Source: an uncultured Hyphomicrobiaceae bacterium (GTDB lineage Bacteria; Pseudomonadota; Alphaproteobacteria; Rhizobiales; CALHAX01). Taken from it: 41,027 nucleotides of DNA. Position numbers and translations under genes: made by a program. This document shows positions 1,716 through 9,009 of the stretch, piece after piece. The stretch lies in the NCBI GenBank assembly GCA_937931785.1, contig CALHAX010000066.1:1-41027 (forward strand), in the 5' to 3' direction. The notes under the pieces were generated by a model. It searched no databases, was not told the origin of the DNA, and was given only the letters and a program-made list of their open reading frames with translations. Within the stretch, counting starts at the first letter, position 1. Each line of letters opens with the position of its first letter.

Positions 1716-2648
1716 ATGTCACGTTTGCGCCGAACCCTCCCGCCATTGAGTACGCTGCTACCTTTCGAGGCTGCAGCCCGTCTCGGCAGCTTCTCGCTGG
1801 CCGCCAATGAACTGCATCTGACGCAGGCGGCGATCAGCAGACACATCAAGGCGCTGGAAGCGTCCGTTGGAACTTCCTTGTTCGAGCGTCAGCATCGCCG
1901 GGTGGTCCTCACCAGCGCCGGGCTCAAGCTGAGCGAAACCGTGAGAGCAGCGTTTGCCGCAATTTCTGATGACGCCGAAGCGCTTCGCAACACGGGCGCT
2001 GACGAGACGGTTACTGTGTATGCAGAGTTGGCGCTCGCAGCCTATTGGTTGGTGCCGCGCCTTGCGGTGCTGGAGCAAACCCGGCCGGAGATCGATGTTC
2101 GGGTGATCACATCCAATCAGTCGCTCGATCAGGTGGCCGACCCTTTCGATATCGGATTGCAGACTAGCCCTCGCACTCGGGACAAGCTTGTGCCAGCGAT
2201 CGCAGTGCAGGAAGAGATTTTTCCGATCTGCAGTCCGGCCTATCTTGCAAGACGAGGCGGTTCACTCGCACTCGCAGATATACCGGGTGAGACTCTGCTC
2301 AGCTTGCGCGACGAAGCGTTCAACTGGCTGGACTGGGAGGGTTTTTTGTCTCACTTCGAAGTGACGCCGCCGCAGGATGCAAATTTGCGCAAGCACAACA
2401 ACTATGCTGTGCTGCTTCAGGCTGTCATCTCCGGTCAGGGTATTGCACTGGGATGGCGGCATTCCATATCGCGCCTTCTCGAGAGTGGTGCCGTGGTGCG
2501 CGTCCTCGATGAAACGTATGAGGTGGAGGATGGGGTGTTTGCCTACACACCACGTGGCCTCAAGCCAGGCAGCAAGGCGGAGCATCTCTTCAACTGGATC
2601 GGCGATGAACTACGCAGCCCTGGGTCCGAGCCGTCACGTTCCGGTTGA
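1716..2648 (+). CDS. LysR-family transcriptional regulator (GcvA-like)
   Basis: This is a 310-residue LysR-type regulator. The N-terminal winged helix-turn-helix (about residues 8-65) has the GcvA-like opening PPLSTLLPFEAAARLGSFSLAA followed by LTQAAISRHIKALE, and a periplasmic-binding-like effector domain (about 95-300) follows. The resemblance to GcvA-type regulators, which often control amine and amino acid genes, fits its position divergent from the MttB-like methyltransferase, its likely target. No Shine-Dalgarno sequence precedes the ATG, so the mRNA may be leaderless or weakly translated. The 3' end overlaps the convergent amine-oxidase gene by 15 bp. The family is certain; the effector is unknown. 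Confidence 0.9.
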   Translation: MSRLRRTLPPLSTLLPFEAAARLGSFSLAANELHLTQAAISRHIKALEASVGTSLFERQHRRVVLTSAGLKLSETVRAAFAAISDDAEALRNTGADETVTVYAELALAAYWLVPRLAVLEQTRPEIDVRVITSNQSLDQVADPFDIGLQTSPRTRDKLVPAIAVQEEIFPICSPAYLARRGGSLALADIPGETLLSLRDEAFNWLDWEGFLSHFEVTPPQDANLRKHNNYAVLLQAVISGQGIALGWRHSISRLLESGAVVRVLDETYEVEDGVFAYTPRGLKPGSKAEHLFNWIGDELRSPGSEPSRSG

Positions 2649-3761
2649 CCGAATAGTCTGCGAACCGTGAGCGCGGTCTTTGACAAGGAGTGTCGCAGCG
2701 TGTTCCGCCGCCACGAAAGCGCCCTCGATAAGGCCGGGACTACGGGCTGCGACTTCCGCCCCGGCAAGAACCAGGCGGCCGTTCAAATGGCGTTGCCGCA
2801 GGATTTCCGGTCCCACATCTGGATGCATCGAAGGGCCCGACAGATCTGACGGCGCGGTTGTGCACGGCTGCTGCGCCCAATCTTCGATAAAGATATTGGT
2901 GGGCGCGGGACTGTCGGCACCGAAACAGCGCGTTAATTGCTCGCGCACCTGGGTTTCCAGAACAGTGGGGCCCAACTCGGTGCGCATGTGTGCAGGCCAT
3001 CCGAGAAAGCCGAACAGCGCAGCAGTGGTACCATCTTCGGAGCAATGATCGTGCGCCTCGACAATCGGGCCATCCCGACTGGCGATGCGGCCTGACAGTC
3101 CACGTGGTCGCCAAAATGCAGTATCGTAGGTCGCGACCAGTTTGGCGTGCGGTGCCATCCATGTCGGCATTCGCTCAAGCGCGGAGGGTAACCCGGGAGT
3201 TAGATCTGCAATATCACGAATGAGCGGCGCTGCAATTCTTGGAGGCGTCGCGAGGACTACAGATCCACAGTGCAGTGAAGTGCCATCGGTGCACCGAATA
3301 TGGACAGTATCATCTTTTGTGCATTGAACCGATGAAACGACGGTACCAAGCATCGTGGCGTCTGGCGGCAATCGGGACCACAACGCGTTGATCAACGCTT
3401 GCGGCCCACCCTTGATGCGCTGCAGCCCGTCCTGGTCCGGCAATCTGAGCTGCTGTGGAGCACCATCCGGGCCACCGTCAAGGATGGCTTGTCCCTTTAC
3501 GTATTGCTCAAATGTTGCGACGTCGAGCCGGTCGAGCCACTGCGACACAACGGGTTGAAACGCTGGCCAGACCCAGGTGGGACCAAGATCTGCAACATAA
3601 TCTCCGGATTGCGGATCCGTTACGGAATGAATTCGGCCACCGATTCTGTCACGTGCCTCAATGACACACACAGACAGGCCTGCTTCTGTCAGAAGGTGGG
3701 CTGTCGCCAGGCCGGATAGTCCGGCCCCCACAACGACCACATCGAAGTGAACCATCGTCAT
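2634..3761 (-). CDS. FAD-dependent amine-oxidase-like oxidoreductase
   Basis: The 375-residue product resembles flavin monoamine oxidases. It opens with a Rossmann FAD-binding motif (VVVGAGLSGLATAHLL, about residues 8-23), then the ADP-ribose-binding EARDRIGGRI. It ends with the FAD-closing segment LAGAEVAARSPGLIEGAF near residue 340. At 375 residues it is shorter than typical monoamine oxidases (about 450), so the substrate domain is compact. No signal peptide is seen, so it is probably cytoplasmic. The start codon overlaps the tetR stop as ATGA, which indicates translational coupling and shared control by that regulator. An amine is the likely substrate but the exact compound cannot be read from sequence. 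Confidence 0.82.
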   Translation of the reverse strand: MTMVHFDVVVVGAGLSGLATAHLLTEAGLSVCVIEARDRIGGRIHSVTDPQSGDYVADLGPTWVWPAFQPVVSQWLDRLDVATFEQYVKGQAILDGGPDGAPQQLRLPDQDGLQRIKGGPQALINALWSRLPPDATMLGTVVSSVQCTKDDTVHIRCTDGTSLHCGSVVLATPPRIAAPLIRDIADLTPGLPSALERMPTWMAPHAKLVATYDTAFWRPRGLSGRIASRDGPIVEAHDHCSEDGTTAALFGFLGWPAHMRTELGPTVLETQVREQLTRCFGADSPAPTNIFIEDWAQQPCTTAPSDLSGPSMHPDVGPEILRQRHLNGRLVLAGAEVAARSPGLIEGAFVAAEHAATLLVKDRAHGSQTIRSTGT

Positions 3762-4318
3762 CTGTTAAGGGCCGGTGATTGTTCGATGGCAGTTGTTGCG
3801 ATCGCATCGAACAACTTCGGATCGTCCATCGATTTGGCAAGCATCATGCCGCCTTGATACGTTGCAACGAGGCGCCGCGCGGCTTTGCGACGCTCAGCCA
3901 TCGGCATACTTGCGGGAAGTGCTTCGCTGACCCATTCGATATTGGCAGCGAAAAAACCGTTCACAGCGTCACGTACAGAAGGCGGCAGACCTGCGGCTTC
4001 CGCACCAAGCAGTCCACACAGGCACAAGGCACCATCCTTGATCAATGCTTTACGGTAAAGCAGGCGGAACGCACGCAGCTTACTCTCCGCTTCATTGGCC
4101 GAACGCGTATTCTTATCGAGCGCTTCGAAGAACTGTTCACGATAACGTTGGATCAGCGCCACCGCCAGGTCTTCCTTGCGGGGGTAGTGGTAGTGTACGC
4201 TGGAACTCTTGATATTGGTATCGCTCGCGAGGTCGCGGAAACTGACCGCATTATACCCGCCACGGCGCATGCGAAACTCTGCGGCATCGAGCAATCTGGT
4301 TGTCGTGGATGTGGTCAT
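3758..4318 (-). CDS. TetR/AcrR-family transcriptional regulator
   Basis: This TetR-type repressor has its helix-turn-helix in the first 50 residues (LLDAAEFRMRRGGYNAVSFRDLA then SSSVHYHYPRKEDLA) and a variable ligand-binding C-terminus with a conserved single Cys pair (CLCGLLGAE). I chose the ATG at 4318. An in-frame ATG at 4336 exists, but it lies inside a palindrome that looks like the repressor's own operator and has no Shine-Dalgarno sequence. The gene is the first of a two-gene unit with the amine oxidase (ATGA overlap). A near-identical palindrome in the promoter of the GST gene at 5274-5894 suggests that gene is a second target. The family is certain; the ligand is unknown. Confidence 0.9.
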   Translation of the reverse strand: MTTSTTTRLLDAAEFRMRRGGYNAVSFRDLASDTNIKSSSVHYHYPRKEDLAVALIQRYREQFFEALDKNTRSANEAESKLRAFRLLYRKALIKDGALCLCGLLGAEAAGLPPSVRDAVNGFFAANIEWVSEALPASMPMAERRKAARRLVATYQGGMMLAKSMDDPKLFDAIATTAIEQSPALNR

Positions 4319-4326
4319 GTCGCCGG

Positions 4327-4342
4327 TACCTATCATGAGGTA
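4327..4342. promoter_or_regulatory. Candidate TetR operator, tetR start region
   Basis: The dyad is TACCT-ATCATG-AGGTA. It matches 13 of 16 positions of the dyad in the GST promoter (5968-5983), with the same half-sites and the same 6-bp spacing. It lies just upstream of the preferred tetR start at 4318, which suits negative autoregulation. Binding is inferred. Confidence 0.55.
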
Positions 4343-4347
4343 GGCAT

Positions 4348-4357
4348 TGACATGTCA
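4348..4357. promoter_or_regulatory. Perfect 10-bp palindrome TGACATGTCA between tetR and bicupin gene
   Basis: TGACATGTCA is its own reverse complement. It sits in the shared upstream region of tetR (minus) and the bicupin gene (plus), 5 bp from the TACCT dyad. On the plus strand its left half is part of a TTGACA hexamer that could be a -35 box. It may be a second regulator site; there is no independent support. Confidence 0.3.
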
Positions 4358-4467
4358 CGTTGGCGAAGTCAATGTTTGAACGCAATATATCAGGTGATAG
4401 ATAGGCGATTGAGAGTCATTTCGCTTTCGTGACGTCATCTGGAAGCATTTGAAGGCAGAACGCAACG

Positions 4468-5163
4468 ATGATCGAACTGAATACAGATTTTGGCGCTCGT
4501 GCCTCCGTCCATGGAGCGCAGCTTGATTGGCAGCCATCCCCGATGAAGGGTGTGGATCGTCGCATGCTGGAGCGCATCGGGGATGAAGTGGCCCGGGCCA
4601 CATCGATTGTACGGTATGCACCCGAGAGTAGCTTCTCGCCACATGTCCATACTGGAGGAGAAGAGTTTTTTGTTCTCGATGGTGTCTTCCAGGATGAGCA
4701 TGGCGACTTTCCAGCAGGAAGTTATATCCGTAACCCACCGGACTCTTCGCATACGCCAGGATCAGATATAGGATGCACGATCTTCGTCAAGCTCTGGCAG
4801 TTCCAGCCCGACGATCGTAACCAGGTGTCGGTGGACACAAAAAGTGCGCAGTTCGAACCGGTTGCTGATCGTGTAGGCGTGTCTGCGATTCCACTCTTCA
4901 AGGACGCACGGGAAAACGTGCGCATGGAACGGTGGCAACCTGGTGCTGTCGTTGACTTCGAACCCTCCGGTGGGCTCGAAATTTTCGTGATCGAAGGCGG
5001 TTTTGAGGAGGGTGGCGAAGCGTTCGGCGCTCAGTCCTGGCTGCGCTTGCCTGATGGAGCATCACTGGAAGCCGTATCGGGTTCTGATGGGTGTCTCTGT
5101 TGGGTCAAGGAGGGCCATCTCGCGCATATGGATAGTGAAGCTTTCGCAGCTCGTGTCGCTTAG
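4468..5163 (+). CDS. Bicupin protein related to ChrR-type cupins
   Basis: The 231-residue product contains two cupin barrels. The first (about residues 40-105) has the metal-binding motif HVHTGGEEFFVLDG and a second histidine in PPDSSHTP, as in the C-terminal domain of the anti-sigma factor ChrR. The second barrel (about 140-220) keeps the fold pattern (FVIEGGFEEGGEAF, SWLRLPDG) but lacks the histidine cluster, so probably only the first binds metal. The ChrR zinc-binding anti-sigma N-terminal domain is absent and no ECF sigma gene is nearby, so this is not a sigma regulator but a stand-alone cupin, perhaps an enzyme or sensor of reactive species. It is divergent from tetR and convergent with GST. 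The precise role is unknown. Confidence 0.8.
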   Translation: MIELNTDFGARASVHGAQLDWQPSPMKGVDRRMLERIGDEVARATSIVRYAPESSFSPHVHTGGEEFFVLDGVFQDEHGDFPAGSYIRNPPDSSHTPGSDIGCTIFVKLWQFQPDDRNQVSVDTKSAQFEPVADRVGVSAIPLFKDARENVRMERWQPGAVVDFEPSGGLEIFVIEGGFEEGGEAFGAQSWLRLPDGASLEAVSGSDGCLCWVKEGHLAHMDSEAFAARVA

Positions 5164-5273
5164 CGAATATCAAAACAAGCAGCGGACGTCAGTTGCGTAA
5201 CACTGACATCCGCCGTTTTTTAGACGCTGGCGTGTCGGTCATGCAAGCCTCGACAAGCAGGACCGCGTCATCG

Positions 5274-5894
5274 TCAACCAGCGATGCTTGGACGCGCTGC
5301 CATTGTTTTGCGCCATGCTGCGAGGTTTGAAAGCCCTTCCGGAATGTCAATCTTTGCGAACTCCGCGAACGCCAGTCCGGCAAACGCCGTGATGTCCGCC
5401 ATGCTGAACTGCTCACCCGCCACGTACGGTTGATCTGCGAGCACGGAATTCAGGTATTGCATACCTTTGAGGGCGGTCTGCTTTTGTTTTTCGCCCCATG
5501 CCTTGTTCTGATCACCTTCCAGATCTGGTCCAAGGCCAGGCGTGGCATTATGGAAATATGCGCCGACCGCATCCAGGAGGCCTGACTCCATGCGACGTTG
5601 CATCATGTGAACGACAGCGCGCTCTTTTGCCGTTTTGCCACCAAGGGATGGGCCTTCAAAGGCATGGTCGATGTATTCGGTGATAGCTGTACATTCGGAA
5701 ATCGTCGTGCCGTCGTCCAGCTCAAGCACCGGCACTGCGCCGTTTGGGTTCTTGGCAAGGAACGCAGGTGTGCGGTGTTCGCCGCCCATAACATCTACAT
5801 CCACAAACTCGACTTTGTCTGTTGCGTTTTTCTCCGCCAAAGCGATCCGCACGCGTGCAGGGTTGGGATATGCAGCTACGTCGTAAATCTTCAT
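5274..5894 (-). CDS. Glutathione S-transferase family protein
   Basis: The 206-residue product is a cytosolic GST of normal length. It has a thioredoxin-fold N-terminal domain (MKIYDVAAYPNPARVRIALAE, the cis-proline in GAVPVLEL, and the glutathione-contacting ISECTAI near residue 66). An all-helical C-terminal domain follows, containing the typical QFSMADITAFAGLAF motif near residue 163. Such enzymes conjugate electrophiles to glutathione or act as peroxidases. Its promoter carries a 20-bp dyad almost identical to the one at the tetR start, so it is probably repressed by that TetR protein together with the amine oxidase. One reading is that the GST removes a reactive product of amine oxidation; that is inference. 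Confidence 0.9.
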   Translation of the reverse strand: MKIYDVAAYPNPARVRIALAEKNATDKVEFVDVDVMGGEHRTPAFLAKNPNGAVPVLELDDGTTISECTAITEYIDHAFEGPSLGGKTAKERAVVHMMQRRMESGLLDAVGAYFHNATPGLGPDLEGDQNKAWGEKQKQTALKGMQYLNSVLADQPYVAGEQFSMADITAFAGLAFAEFAKIDIPEGLSNLAAWRKTMAARPSIAG

Positions 5895-5965
5895 CTTGAT
5901 TGTCCTTCGAGAATTCGCGAGCGCCCTCTTGGGCGGGTGTGTCAGGTAAATGATACAGCAAATTA

Positions 5966-5985
5966 TCTACCTATCTATAGGTAGA
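5966..5985. promoter_or_regulatory. Candidate TetR operator in the GST promoter
   Basis: This is a perfect 9-bp inverted repeat with a 2-bp centre: TCTACCTAT-CT-ATAGGTAGA. The inner 16 bp share half-sites and spacing with the dyad at 4327-4342. It abuts the proposed GST -10 box on its downstream side and covers the likely transcription start, a classic repressor position. Confidence 0.6.
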
Positions 5986-6014
5986 TATAACTATGAAAGC
6001 ATCCTGCGCGTCAA
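5985..6014 (-). promoter_or_regulatory. Candidate promoter of the GST gene
   Basis: On the minus strand TTGACG (plus coordinates 6009-6014) and TTATAT (5985-5990) are 18 bp apart. Transcription would start near 5978, inside the TetR-like operator, leaving a leader of about 85 nt. Confidence 0.45.
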
Positions 6015-6808: not shown

Positions 6809-7903
6809 TCATGCATATGTCTCTTGATTGTTCTCCGCCACTGTATGGCGTGCCTCTGCCTCGTGTGCGAGAGCGGCGATGACTGATTGAGGGGTCACGA
6901 TACCGACGACATGCCCACCATCGCTCACGGCAAGCCCGCTACTGTGCTTTGCCAGCTCGGAGAGGATGTCTTCAACGGTTGTCGTGGATGCGACTTGAGG
7001 CAGGGTACTCGTGTCTCCATCACTCGGGCGCATGACGTCTCCAGCCTGCAGCACACGGACAAGCGGAACGTCAGCGGTGAATTCTGCAACGTAATCGTCC
7101 GCTGGGTTGACGATCAATTCAGCAGGCGTTCCGATTTGTACGACCATGCCATCACGCATGATCATCATCCGGTCTGCAATCCGCAAGGCTTCCAGAAAAT
7201 CATGGGTGATGAAGACAATTGATTTTTTCAACACCTGCTGAATGCGAAGGAATTCATCCTGCATCTGTCGGCGGATTAGTGGGTCAAGCGCCGAGAACGG
7301 CTCGTCAAGAAACCAGAGCTCCGGTTCTACGGCAAGGGATCGGGCAATGCCGACGCGTTGTTGCTGTCCACCCGAGAGTTGCCGCGGGAAGCTGCTCTCG
7401 CGCCCCTTCAGGCCGACAAGCTCGATAACACGAGCTGCGCGCTCGCGCCGTTCGCTGCTCCCCAAACCCTGAAGTTTCAACGGGAATGCAATATTCTCCG
7501 CAACGGTTAAATGTGGAAGCAGCCCAAAGCTTTGGAAGACCATACCCATCTTGTGGCGGCGAATATCAATGAGCTCTGCGGGAGTTTTCTTGAGCAGATC
7601 TTCGCCATCAAGTAAGATCTGGCCATGCGTTGGTTCGACGAGGCGGGAAAGGCAGCGCACCACTGTGGATTTTCCGGAACCGGAGAGCCCCATGACAACA
7701 AAGATTTCACCAACGTGGACGTCGAACGAGACATTTGCTGCAGCCGGGATCGCACCATCCTTGCGCATGCGGTCTGCAAGCTCGACGGGTTTGATGTCAT
7801 AACCGCTCGTGTCGAAATAATAATCCGGTTTCTTTCCATAGACTTTCCAGACGTTACGACACGACAGTTTGACTGTTTGCTCTGAATTTTCCACCAGTCT
7901 CAT
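6809..7903 (-). CDS. Glycine betaine/choline-type ABC transporter ATPase with CBS domains
   Basis: This is the ATP-binding subunit of a ProV/OpuAA/ChoV-type quaternary amine importer. It shows Walker A (GLSGSGKS), Q-loop (MVFQSFGLLPH), signature (LSGGQQQR) and Walker B (LWFLDEP, followed by FSALDPLIRRQM). A C-terminal CBS region (about the last 100 residues, from VMRPSDG on) is typical of osmoprotectant transporters. I prefer the ATG at 7903; the frame can be extended to a TTG at 7939, but neither start has a well-spaced Shine-Dalgarno sequence. A binding-protein gene lies upstream on the same strand, but a terminator separates the two and no permease gene is present, so the partner ProW-type subunit must be encoded elsewhere. 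Confidence 0.88.
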   Translation of the reverse strand: MRLVENSEQTVKLSCRNVWKVYGKKPDYYFDTSGYDIKPVELADRMRKDGAIPAAANVSFDVHVGEIFVVMGLSGSGKSTVVRCLSRLVEPTHGQILLDGEDLLKKTPAELIDIRRHKMGMVFQSFGLLPHLTVAENIAFPLKLQGLGSSERRERAARVIELVGLKGRESSFPRQLSGGQQQRVGIARSLAVEPELWFLDEPFSALDPLIRRQMQDEFLRIQQVLKKSIVFITHDFLEALRIADRMMIMRDGMVVQIGTPAELIVNPADDYVAEFTADVPLVRVLQAGDVMRPSDGDTSTLPQVASTTTVEDILSELAKHSSGLAVSDGGHVVGIVTPQSVIAALAHEAEARHTVAENNQETYA

Positions 7904-7971
7904 CCCCCACTTTGCGGTAACTTTCACGCGGTCAAGCAATAATACAGTTCGGCCAGCGCACTCCCGATATG

Positions 7972-7998
7972 AAAAAGGGCGGACTGTTCGGTCCGCCC
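7972..7998 (-). terminator. Rho-independent terminator after the betaine-binding protein gene
   Basis: The stem GGGCGGAC/GTCCGCCC (8 bp) has a 6-nt loop and, on the minus strand, is followed by TTTTTC. It lies 40 bp after the binding-protein stop and before the ATPase gene, so it should end or strongly reduce read-through into the ATPase gene. Confidence 0.8.
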
Positions 7999-8037
7999 CT
8001 TCCGTCTGTTTTTCACGTCAGATCAAAGCCCGCGCGA

Positions 8038-9009
8038 TCACCCCTTTGCGGCGTCGACCCAAGGCTTCCAGGTCGCTTCGTTTTTCGCCATCCATTCGGC
8101 GACGACCTCTTCAAGCTTGCGCTTCTTCTGATCGACCTCCAGCATCAACGCATTCATTGTGTCGTTGTCGATACTCAGCGCTTTCATCGCCTTGAACGCA
8201 CCAGGCCAGTCTTTCTCGAAGTTCCTGGAAACAATCTTCGTGATGTCGGCCTGTTTGAAGCCACAGTCGCCTGTCTTGTTCGGGTCAAAGCCCGGCGCGG
8301 GGTTGGTGTCGCAATCGGCTGCGGCAGCAGGCATTTCGATCCAATCCCAGGTGTGTTCACTGTGAATCCAGTGTGGCGCCCAGAACATGACCAGCATGGG
8401 TTGTTTCGCTTTACGCGCTGCTTGCATTTCGGCGATCATCGCACCTTCAGAACCACCTGCTATTGCTGCAATGGGCAGGCCGGCATTTTTCACGAGGTCT
8501 TTTGAGCGTGTACCCCAGTCGGCCGGATACGTGATCAGGCGTGCTTTCGGGAATGTTTCCGGCGTAGCAAACACCTGCGTGCATTTAATAAGAGCCTGAA
8601 CGTCTGGCAGACCCGGGCACTTGTCCTTCATGTAAGGCGGAAACATCCAGCCTTCTTTCGGCTTGAGGCCGAGCAGGCCTAACTGGACAATGTCGCCATT
8701 GGCCACTGATTTAGGGTAGATCTCACCGACGTTGTTGCCCCATGTCTCAGGCTGCAAGTGAATGTTGCCCTGCGCAATGGCCGCAAACTGTGGCACTGCA
8801 CCAGCTGTCACATATTCGACCTTGTAGCCCGCATTCTTGAGCACACTGCCCGAGATGTGGGCTGAAATGTGCTGACCGGTCCATTCGTTGATGGCAATCT
8901 TGATGGGCTTGCTTGAGTCCGCGAGGGCCGGCGTCGAAACGCCTGCGAGGGCGCCAAAAGCCATACCAGCGGCGAGTGCGGCGGTTCGTGTTAAATTCCG
9001 GATCTGCAT
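8038..9009 (-). CDS. Glycine betaine/quaternary amine ABC transporter substrate-binding protein
   Basis: The 323-residue product is a periplasmic binding protein of the OpuAC/ProX family. It has a Sec signal peptide (about residues 1-30, cleavage near PALA-DSSK) and a mature domain with the typical opening IKIAINEWTGQHISAHISG. Aromatic residues such as W in QPETWGNNVGE, FWAPHWIHSEH and EHTWDWIEMP could form the cage that holds a trimethylammonium group. Four or more cysteines (KCPGL, KCTQV, ADCDT, GDCGF) may form disulfides. The ATG at 9009 has a strong GGAGG about 10 bases upstream. The expected permease is missing from the locus; a terminator follows the gene, so it is probably expressed more strongly than the downstream ATPase. 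Confidence 0.9.
   Translation of the reverse strand: MQIRNLTRTAALAAGMAFGALAGVSTPALADSSKPIKIAINEWTGQHISAHISGSVLKNAGYKVEYVTAGAVPQFAAIAQGNIHLQPETWGNNVGEIYPKSVANGDIVQLGLLGLKPKEGWMFPPYMKDKCPGLPDVQALIKCTQVFATPETFPKARLITYPADWGTRSKDLVKNAGLPIAAIAGGSEGAMIAEMQAARKAKQPMLVMFWAPHWIHSEHTWDWIEMPAAAADCDTNPAPGFDPNKTGDCGFKQADITKIVSRNFEKDWPGAFKAMKALSIDNDTMNALMLEVDQKKRKLEEVVAEWMAKNEATWKPWVDAAKG

Follow-up and report, generated by a model that had tools for sequence, protein, structure and literature searches.

Sequence comparison indicates that a single TetR-family repressor probably controls its own operon, a gene for a Gtt2-like glutathione S-transferase (GST) and a divergently transcribed bicupin gene through matching, conserved palindromic operators. 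The probability of this regulon and its operators is put at about 0.88; far less confidence attaches to the inducer and the role. What was observed by computation, starting from the window (the whole 41,027 nt stretch of DNA that was analysed), is the set of sites, how well they are conserved, how specific they are within the genome and how they co-occur with TetR. An earlier note on this DNA had proposed that one TetR governs the tetR-oxidase operon and the GST gene. Conservation of operators and neighbourhood strongly supports that core, but the regulon appears to be larger and to include the bicupin. The features are listed in Table 1.

Table 1. Genes, predicted promoters and operators of the proposed TetR regulon (window coordinates)
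Feature	Position (nt)	Strand	Basis
FAD-dependent flavoenzyme, amine-oxidase superfamily	2634–3761	-	Pfam Amino_oxidase 3.9e-46; alignment to PDB 8p84, 2yg7
tetR, TetR/AcrR repressor, putative LmrA/YxaF-like C-terminal domain	3758–4318	-	Pfam TetR_N; 23-sequence alignment; ORF may reach 4336
Operator 1, tetR promoter	4326–4343 (16-mer 4327–4342; matrix 4323–4346)	.	13/16 consensus, score 12.9
-35 box TTGACA, bicupin promoter (inferred)	4347–4352	+	Similar position in orthologues
-35 box TTGACT, tetR promoter (inferred)	4367–4372	-	Similar position in orthologues
Operator 3, bicupin side of divergent promoter region	4384–4407	.	Score 19.1
ChrR-type bicupin (Cupin_7), divergent from tetR	4468–5163	+	Cupin_7 7.2e-48; PDB 3o14 2.3e-77
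Gtt2-like GST	5274–5894	-	PDB 4n0v 3.8e-86; yeast Gtt2 3erf 8.1e-74
Operator 2, GST promoter	5964–5987	.	11+2+11 palindrome, 16/16 consensus, score 32.7
GST promoter (inferred)	5985–6014	-	TTGACG 6014–6009, 18 bp, TTATAT 5990–5985

Predicted operators and promoters in the window

The two dyads reported previously are present at nt 4327–4342 (TACCTATCATGAGGTA) and nt 5968–5983 (TACCTATCTATAGGTA), and 13 of their 16 bases are identical. The palindrome at the GST promoter, described before as a 9+2+9 dyad, extends to 11+2+11 (TATCTACCTAT-CT-ATAGGTAGATA, nt 5964–5987). The claimed overlap of operator 1 with the 5' end of tetR holds only if translation begins at the upstream ATG (nt 4336); the operator immediately precedes the likely start codon (nt 4318), from which homologues align (MTTST). 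A symmetric matrix made from 41 homologous sites, with those of the window excluded, placed operators 2, 3 and 1 first among all sites of the window, while the next unrelated site scored 3.0. In simulated sequence, no site in 10 Mb equalled the score of operator 2, and that of operator 1 was reached 0.6 times per Mb. Operator 3 had been missed in the first reading. It is the second-best distinct site of the matrix scan in the window, and its core (TATCAGGTGATAGATA) recurs unchanged in L048, a distant relative, at the second operator. Because operator 3 is on the bicupin side of the divergent promoter region, the bicupin gene is probably a member of the regulon and more than a gene lying in between. 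Counting against the regulon is the weakness of operator 1, which is nearest to tetR yet has the poorest match of the three.

Operators 1 and 3 enclose two facing -35 boxes. Most relatives have 30–43 bp between -35 box and operator centre; the corresponding distances in the window are 48.5 and 37.5 bp. At the GST gene, the predicted promoter puts the transcription start within operator 2, in agreement with the earlier note, and the start of its -35 box is 38.5 bp from the operator centre. Steric repression by TetR would be the simplest mechanism, because the operators cover or adjoin the predicted transcription starts, their placement being read from the conserved -35 boxes. As an autorepressor, TetR would bind the palindrome CTAYCTAYNNATAGRTAG (24 bp when its flanks are counted) at three operators. 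One serves its own promoter and hence the tetR-oxidase operon, another the divergent promoter of the bicupin gene, and the third the separate GST promoter at a distance of 1.6 kb. As all three overlap the predicted -10 region or closely follow it, bound TetR would stand in the way of RNA polymerase. TetR would be released by a small molecule, for which an electrophile or some other reactive compound is the most plausible candidate, and the GST, bicupin and flavoenzyme would then be induced jointly. We infer binding and repression, together with an inducer and a role in detoxification.

Specificity within the genome

The genome carrying the window (3,657,955 bases) was scanned by pattern matching, not with the matrix. 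With up to three mismatches, the 16-mer was found at the two window sites and at one other place (C129:20676), which is within the coding region of glutamine synthetase and was set aside as background. Apart from this one, good matches are confined to the module in the window rather than scattered at random, and the GST site is the sole perfect match to the family consensus. A degenerate pattern, again with up to three mismatches, gave fewer matches than its reversed control, and the remaining weak matches are therefore regarded as background. The pattern TACCTAT-N-ATAGGTA, suggested in the earlier note for such a scan, finds nothing when taken literally, since it allows a spacer of 1 bp and the actual one has 2 bp. 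One further site, CTATTTACATATAGGCAG (G000:C101:1890–1907, equivalent to L059 1501–1518), matches the consensus at 14/16 positions; a cysH-like gene adjoins it, and an SDR gene follows about 110 bp downstream. It is a candidate only, possibly an extra regulon member or a chance match.

Conservation in related loci

When 150 genomes from the order were searched with TetR and contigs were scanned as well, homologues with 31–60% identity were obtained. The operator of orthologous loci is CTAYCTAYNNATAGRTAG, usually in two copies 47–56 bp apart between divergent genes; the spacing of operators 1 and 3 in the window (61 bp) departs from this and counts against the regulon. The dyad is conserved upstream of orthologous tetR and GST genes. 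Sites matching at 13 or more of 16 positions occur in 25/25 control regions from homologous loci, against a single such hit among the 257,107 positions of these loci outside the regions. Since these regions were picked after inspection, the blind tallies weigh more than this count. Such a site is present at 26 of the 31 TetR loci tabulated, the window included; the exceptions are L015, L027, L032, L033 and L034. A strong site is found elsewhere nearby for L015 and L027 (L082, L093). L015/L046 counts against the regulon, as there is no good site at tetR but one at the bicupin gene instead. The exact consensus was found in 24 of 397 genomes of the order (reversed control, 0), and a homologue of tetR, GST or bicupin lies within 1.5 kb in 22 of the 24 consensus-match loci fetched, with the window's own left out. 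The operator class is common to TetR relatives (31–60% identity) with other target genes, which makes specificity uncertain in genomes with multiple paralogues.

The surrounding genes recur with the operators. In 16/22 homologous loci, a bicupin homologue is no more than about 6 kb from tetR. GST-bicupin operons divergent from tetR occur in L038, L040–L043, L048 and L050, and a bicupin gene divergent from tetR in L035–L037, L039, L047 and L049. Across the phylum, bicupin loci (n = 29) carried the operator in 9/9 cases when a TetR relative was within 1.5 kb and in 0/20 when there was no such neighbour (Fisher 1e-7, kinship ignored). Plasmids of Pseudoalteromonas and Marinobacter (Gammaproteobacteria) carry tetR, GST and cupin genes together with operators. 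Orthologous GST genes (58–81% identity) that are apart from tetR, either on another contig (L131) or several kb distant (L132, L133), still have the operator, as do those located away from tetR in L035 and L036; for paralogous GSTs (at most 45% identity) it was found in 0/10. The predicted recurrent targets are the GST and bicupin, the oxidase being optional. A terminator-like call overlaps operator 2 (nt 5964–5987), but a reading of the dyads as RNA terminator stems or chance palindromes is highly improbable and already contradicted by their specificity within the genome and by the conservation, across families, of their sequence, position and neighbourhood.

Two other arrangements were seen. 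On a plasmid of Sinorhizobium americanum typed as conjugative (L095), five operator copies (nt 4316, 4377, 5839, 5897 and 5965) surround a TetR relative and precede an SDR/FAD oxidoreductase/alcohol dehydrogenase/cupin cluster and an amidotransferase gene, a larger version of the regulon. In L075 (G031), three strong operators (nt 1501, 2904 and 2973) are located around SDR-like and methyltransferase-like genes, with no TetR partner seen in the fetched stretch.

The flavoenzyme and GST

The ATGA coupling of the oxidase gene to tetR was confirmed (overlap at nt 3758–3761), and in five relatives (L035, L036, L037, L041, L042) an oxidase gene is directly downstream of tetR. The protein has the flavin fold (PF01593), and its K207 aligns with the amine oxidase lysine of 8p84. 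The coupling, the retained lysine and the recurrent tetR-oxidase pairs are in keeping with the earlier suggestion that amine oxidation yields a reactive aldehyde or peroxide that is removed by the GST and bicupin. The aromatic residues forming the substrate cage of monoamine and putrescine oxidases are not kept, however, in alignments to 8p84 and 2yg7 (GLIEG where 8p84 has GYIDG), and six otherwise similar loci (L038, L039, L040, L043, L048, L050) show no oxidase gene in the stretches fetched, despite the presence of GST and/or bicupin genes with operators. Because the GST and bicupin recur while the oxidase is optional, detoxification of an amine-oxidation product is unsupported and unlikely. 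Genes of apparent quaternary-amine metabolism flank the region, namely an MttB-like trimethylamine methyltransferase family protein (nt 23–1849) and an ABC ATPase with a binding protein, apparently of the glycine-betaine type (nt 6809–9009), and carry no operators of the TetR type.

The GST aligns over its full length with yeast Gtt2, and the motif YFHxATPGLGP is kept (HHATPGLGP region of Gtt2). It differs from the yeast enzyme in being bacterial and, by prediction, operator-controlled.

The predicted repressor and its relatives

The helix-turn-helix domain of TetR (TetR_N, PF00440) scores 32 bits against a cut-off of 24, and TetR_C_13_2 falls just below its gathering score (23.8 versus 27 bits). 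The helix-turn-helix residues are near-invariant among 23 aligned TetR sequences, and cysteine C99 is kept in 23/23 homologues. Sensing of electrophiles or redox state through C99 would be plausible; NemR is a sensor of this kind. A palindromic operator at the promoter of tetR itself, conserved in orthologues, is consistent with autoregulation, and the architecture is that of a textbook local autoregulated TetR regulon. Repressors of the NemR, LmrA/YxaF, AcuR and CurR types control small autoregulated regulons of redox and detoxification enzymes from operators over promoters, and they share TetR_N with the window protein and perhaps also its putative LmrA/YxaF-like C-terminal domain. They differ in gene set, which in the window is GST plus bicupin. 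Matches to the AcuR and CurR models are weak (27/247 and 26.9/300 bits), far under the NCBIfam cut-offs, and the NemR model does not appear among the NCBIfam matches listed. The half-site of NemR/LmrA also differs from that of the window TetR operator (ATAGRTAG).

No earlier description of the operator or regulon was found in the searchable literature by motif letters or gene set, which is weak evidence given its incomplete coverage; as far as searchable papers show, the operator code and gene set are new. They give a TetR subfamily of Alpha- and Gammaproteobacteria, plasmids included, a regulon and an operator code that can be tested, and would place under one signal the Gtt2-like GST and the ChrR-type bicupin, two enzymes of which little is understood.

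The bicupin and the possible role of the proposed regulon

The regulon is likely to function in handling a reactive compound. A tentative extension, at less than even odds, is a widespread proteobacterial stress regulon in which a TetR subfamily, distinguished by an operator code of its own, would sense electrophiles or oxidants via C99 and induce a Gtt2-type GST together with a metal-binding bicupin, the bicupin acting on or removing the same reactive compound. It is also possible, again short of an even chance, that the operators are real while the physiology they serve is that of one specific pathway (catabolic or lipid/redox), with the bicupin as a metal dioxygenase, the flavoenzyme as an oxidase or desaturase and the GST as a helper rather than an agent of general electrophile detoxification. 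In favour of such a pathway, the N-terminal metal ligands of the bicupin (H59, H61, E65, H95) are near-invariant in the alignment, and related operators in Sinorhizobium precede genes for an SDR, an FAD-oxidoreductase, an alcohol dehydrogenase and a cupin. The example of UfaD, a desaturase of furan fatty acid synthesis with a predicted FAD-binding domain, shows that a flavoprotein of this sort can be something other than an amine oxidase. Against a specific pathway, the GST is among the most constant partners, and recurrent transport or pathway genes were not seen alongside the module.

The N-terminal metal site of the bicupin is intact, and the second domain is without the histidines of the first. 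The protein shares the Cupin_7 fold with ChrR, the anti-sigma factor of the RpoE singlet-oxygen response, and has a close relative in PDB 3o14, which is named anti-ECF sigma factor ChrR. Unlike ChrR, it has two cupin domains and no N-terminal zinc-binding anti-sigma domain, and its match to the ChrR model TIGR02451 covers only model positions 119–186 of 216 (24.9/124.5 bits). Nor did an ECF sigma gene come to notice next to it, in an inspection not aimed at such genes. Bicupins of the 3o14 kind likewise have no anti-sigma domain, and one is found beside TetR and GST genes on the Marinobacter plasmid (L098). This suggests that bicupins labelled 'ChrR anti-sigma factor', PDB 3o14 included, are misnamed. 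A connection to the RpoE/ChrR singlet-oxygen regulon via RSP1090 and RSP1091 was considered and dropped, as both have been described as furan fatty acid enzymes (UfaO and UfaD). In two genomes of the phylum (L120, L128), the bicupin homologue contains in-frame stop codons and may be a pseudogene.
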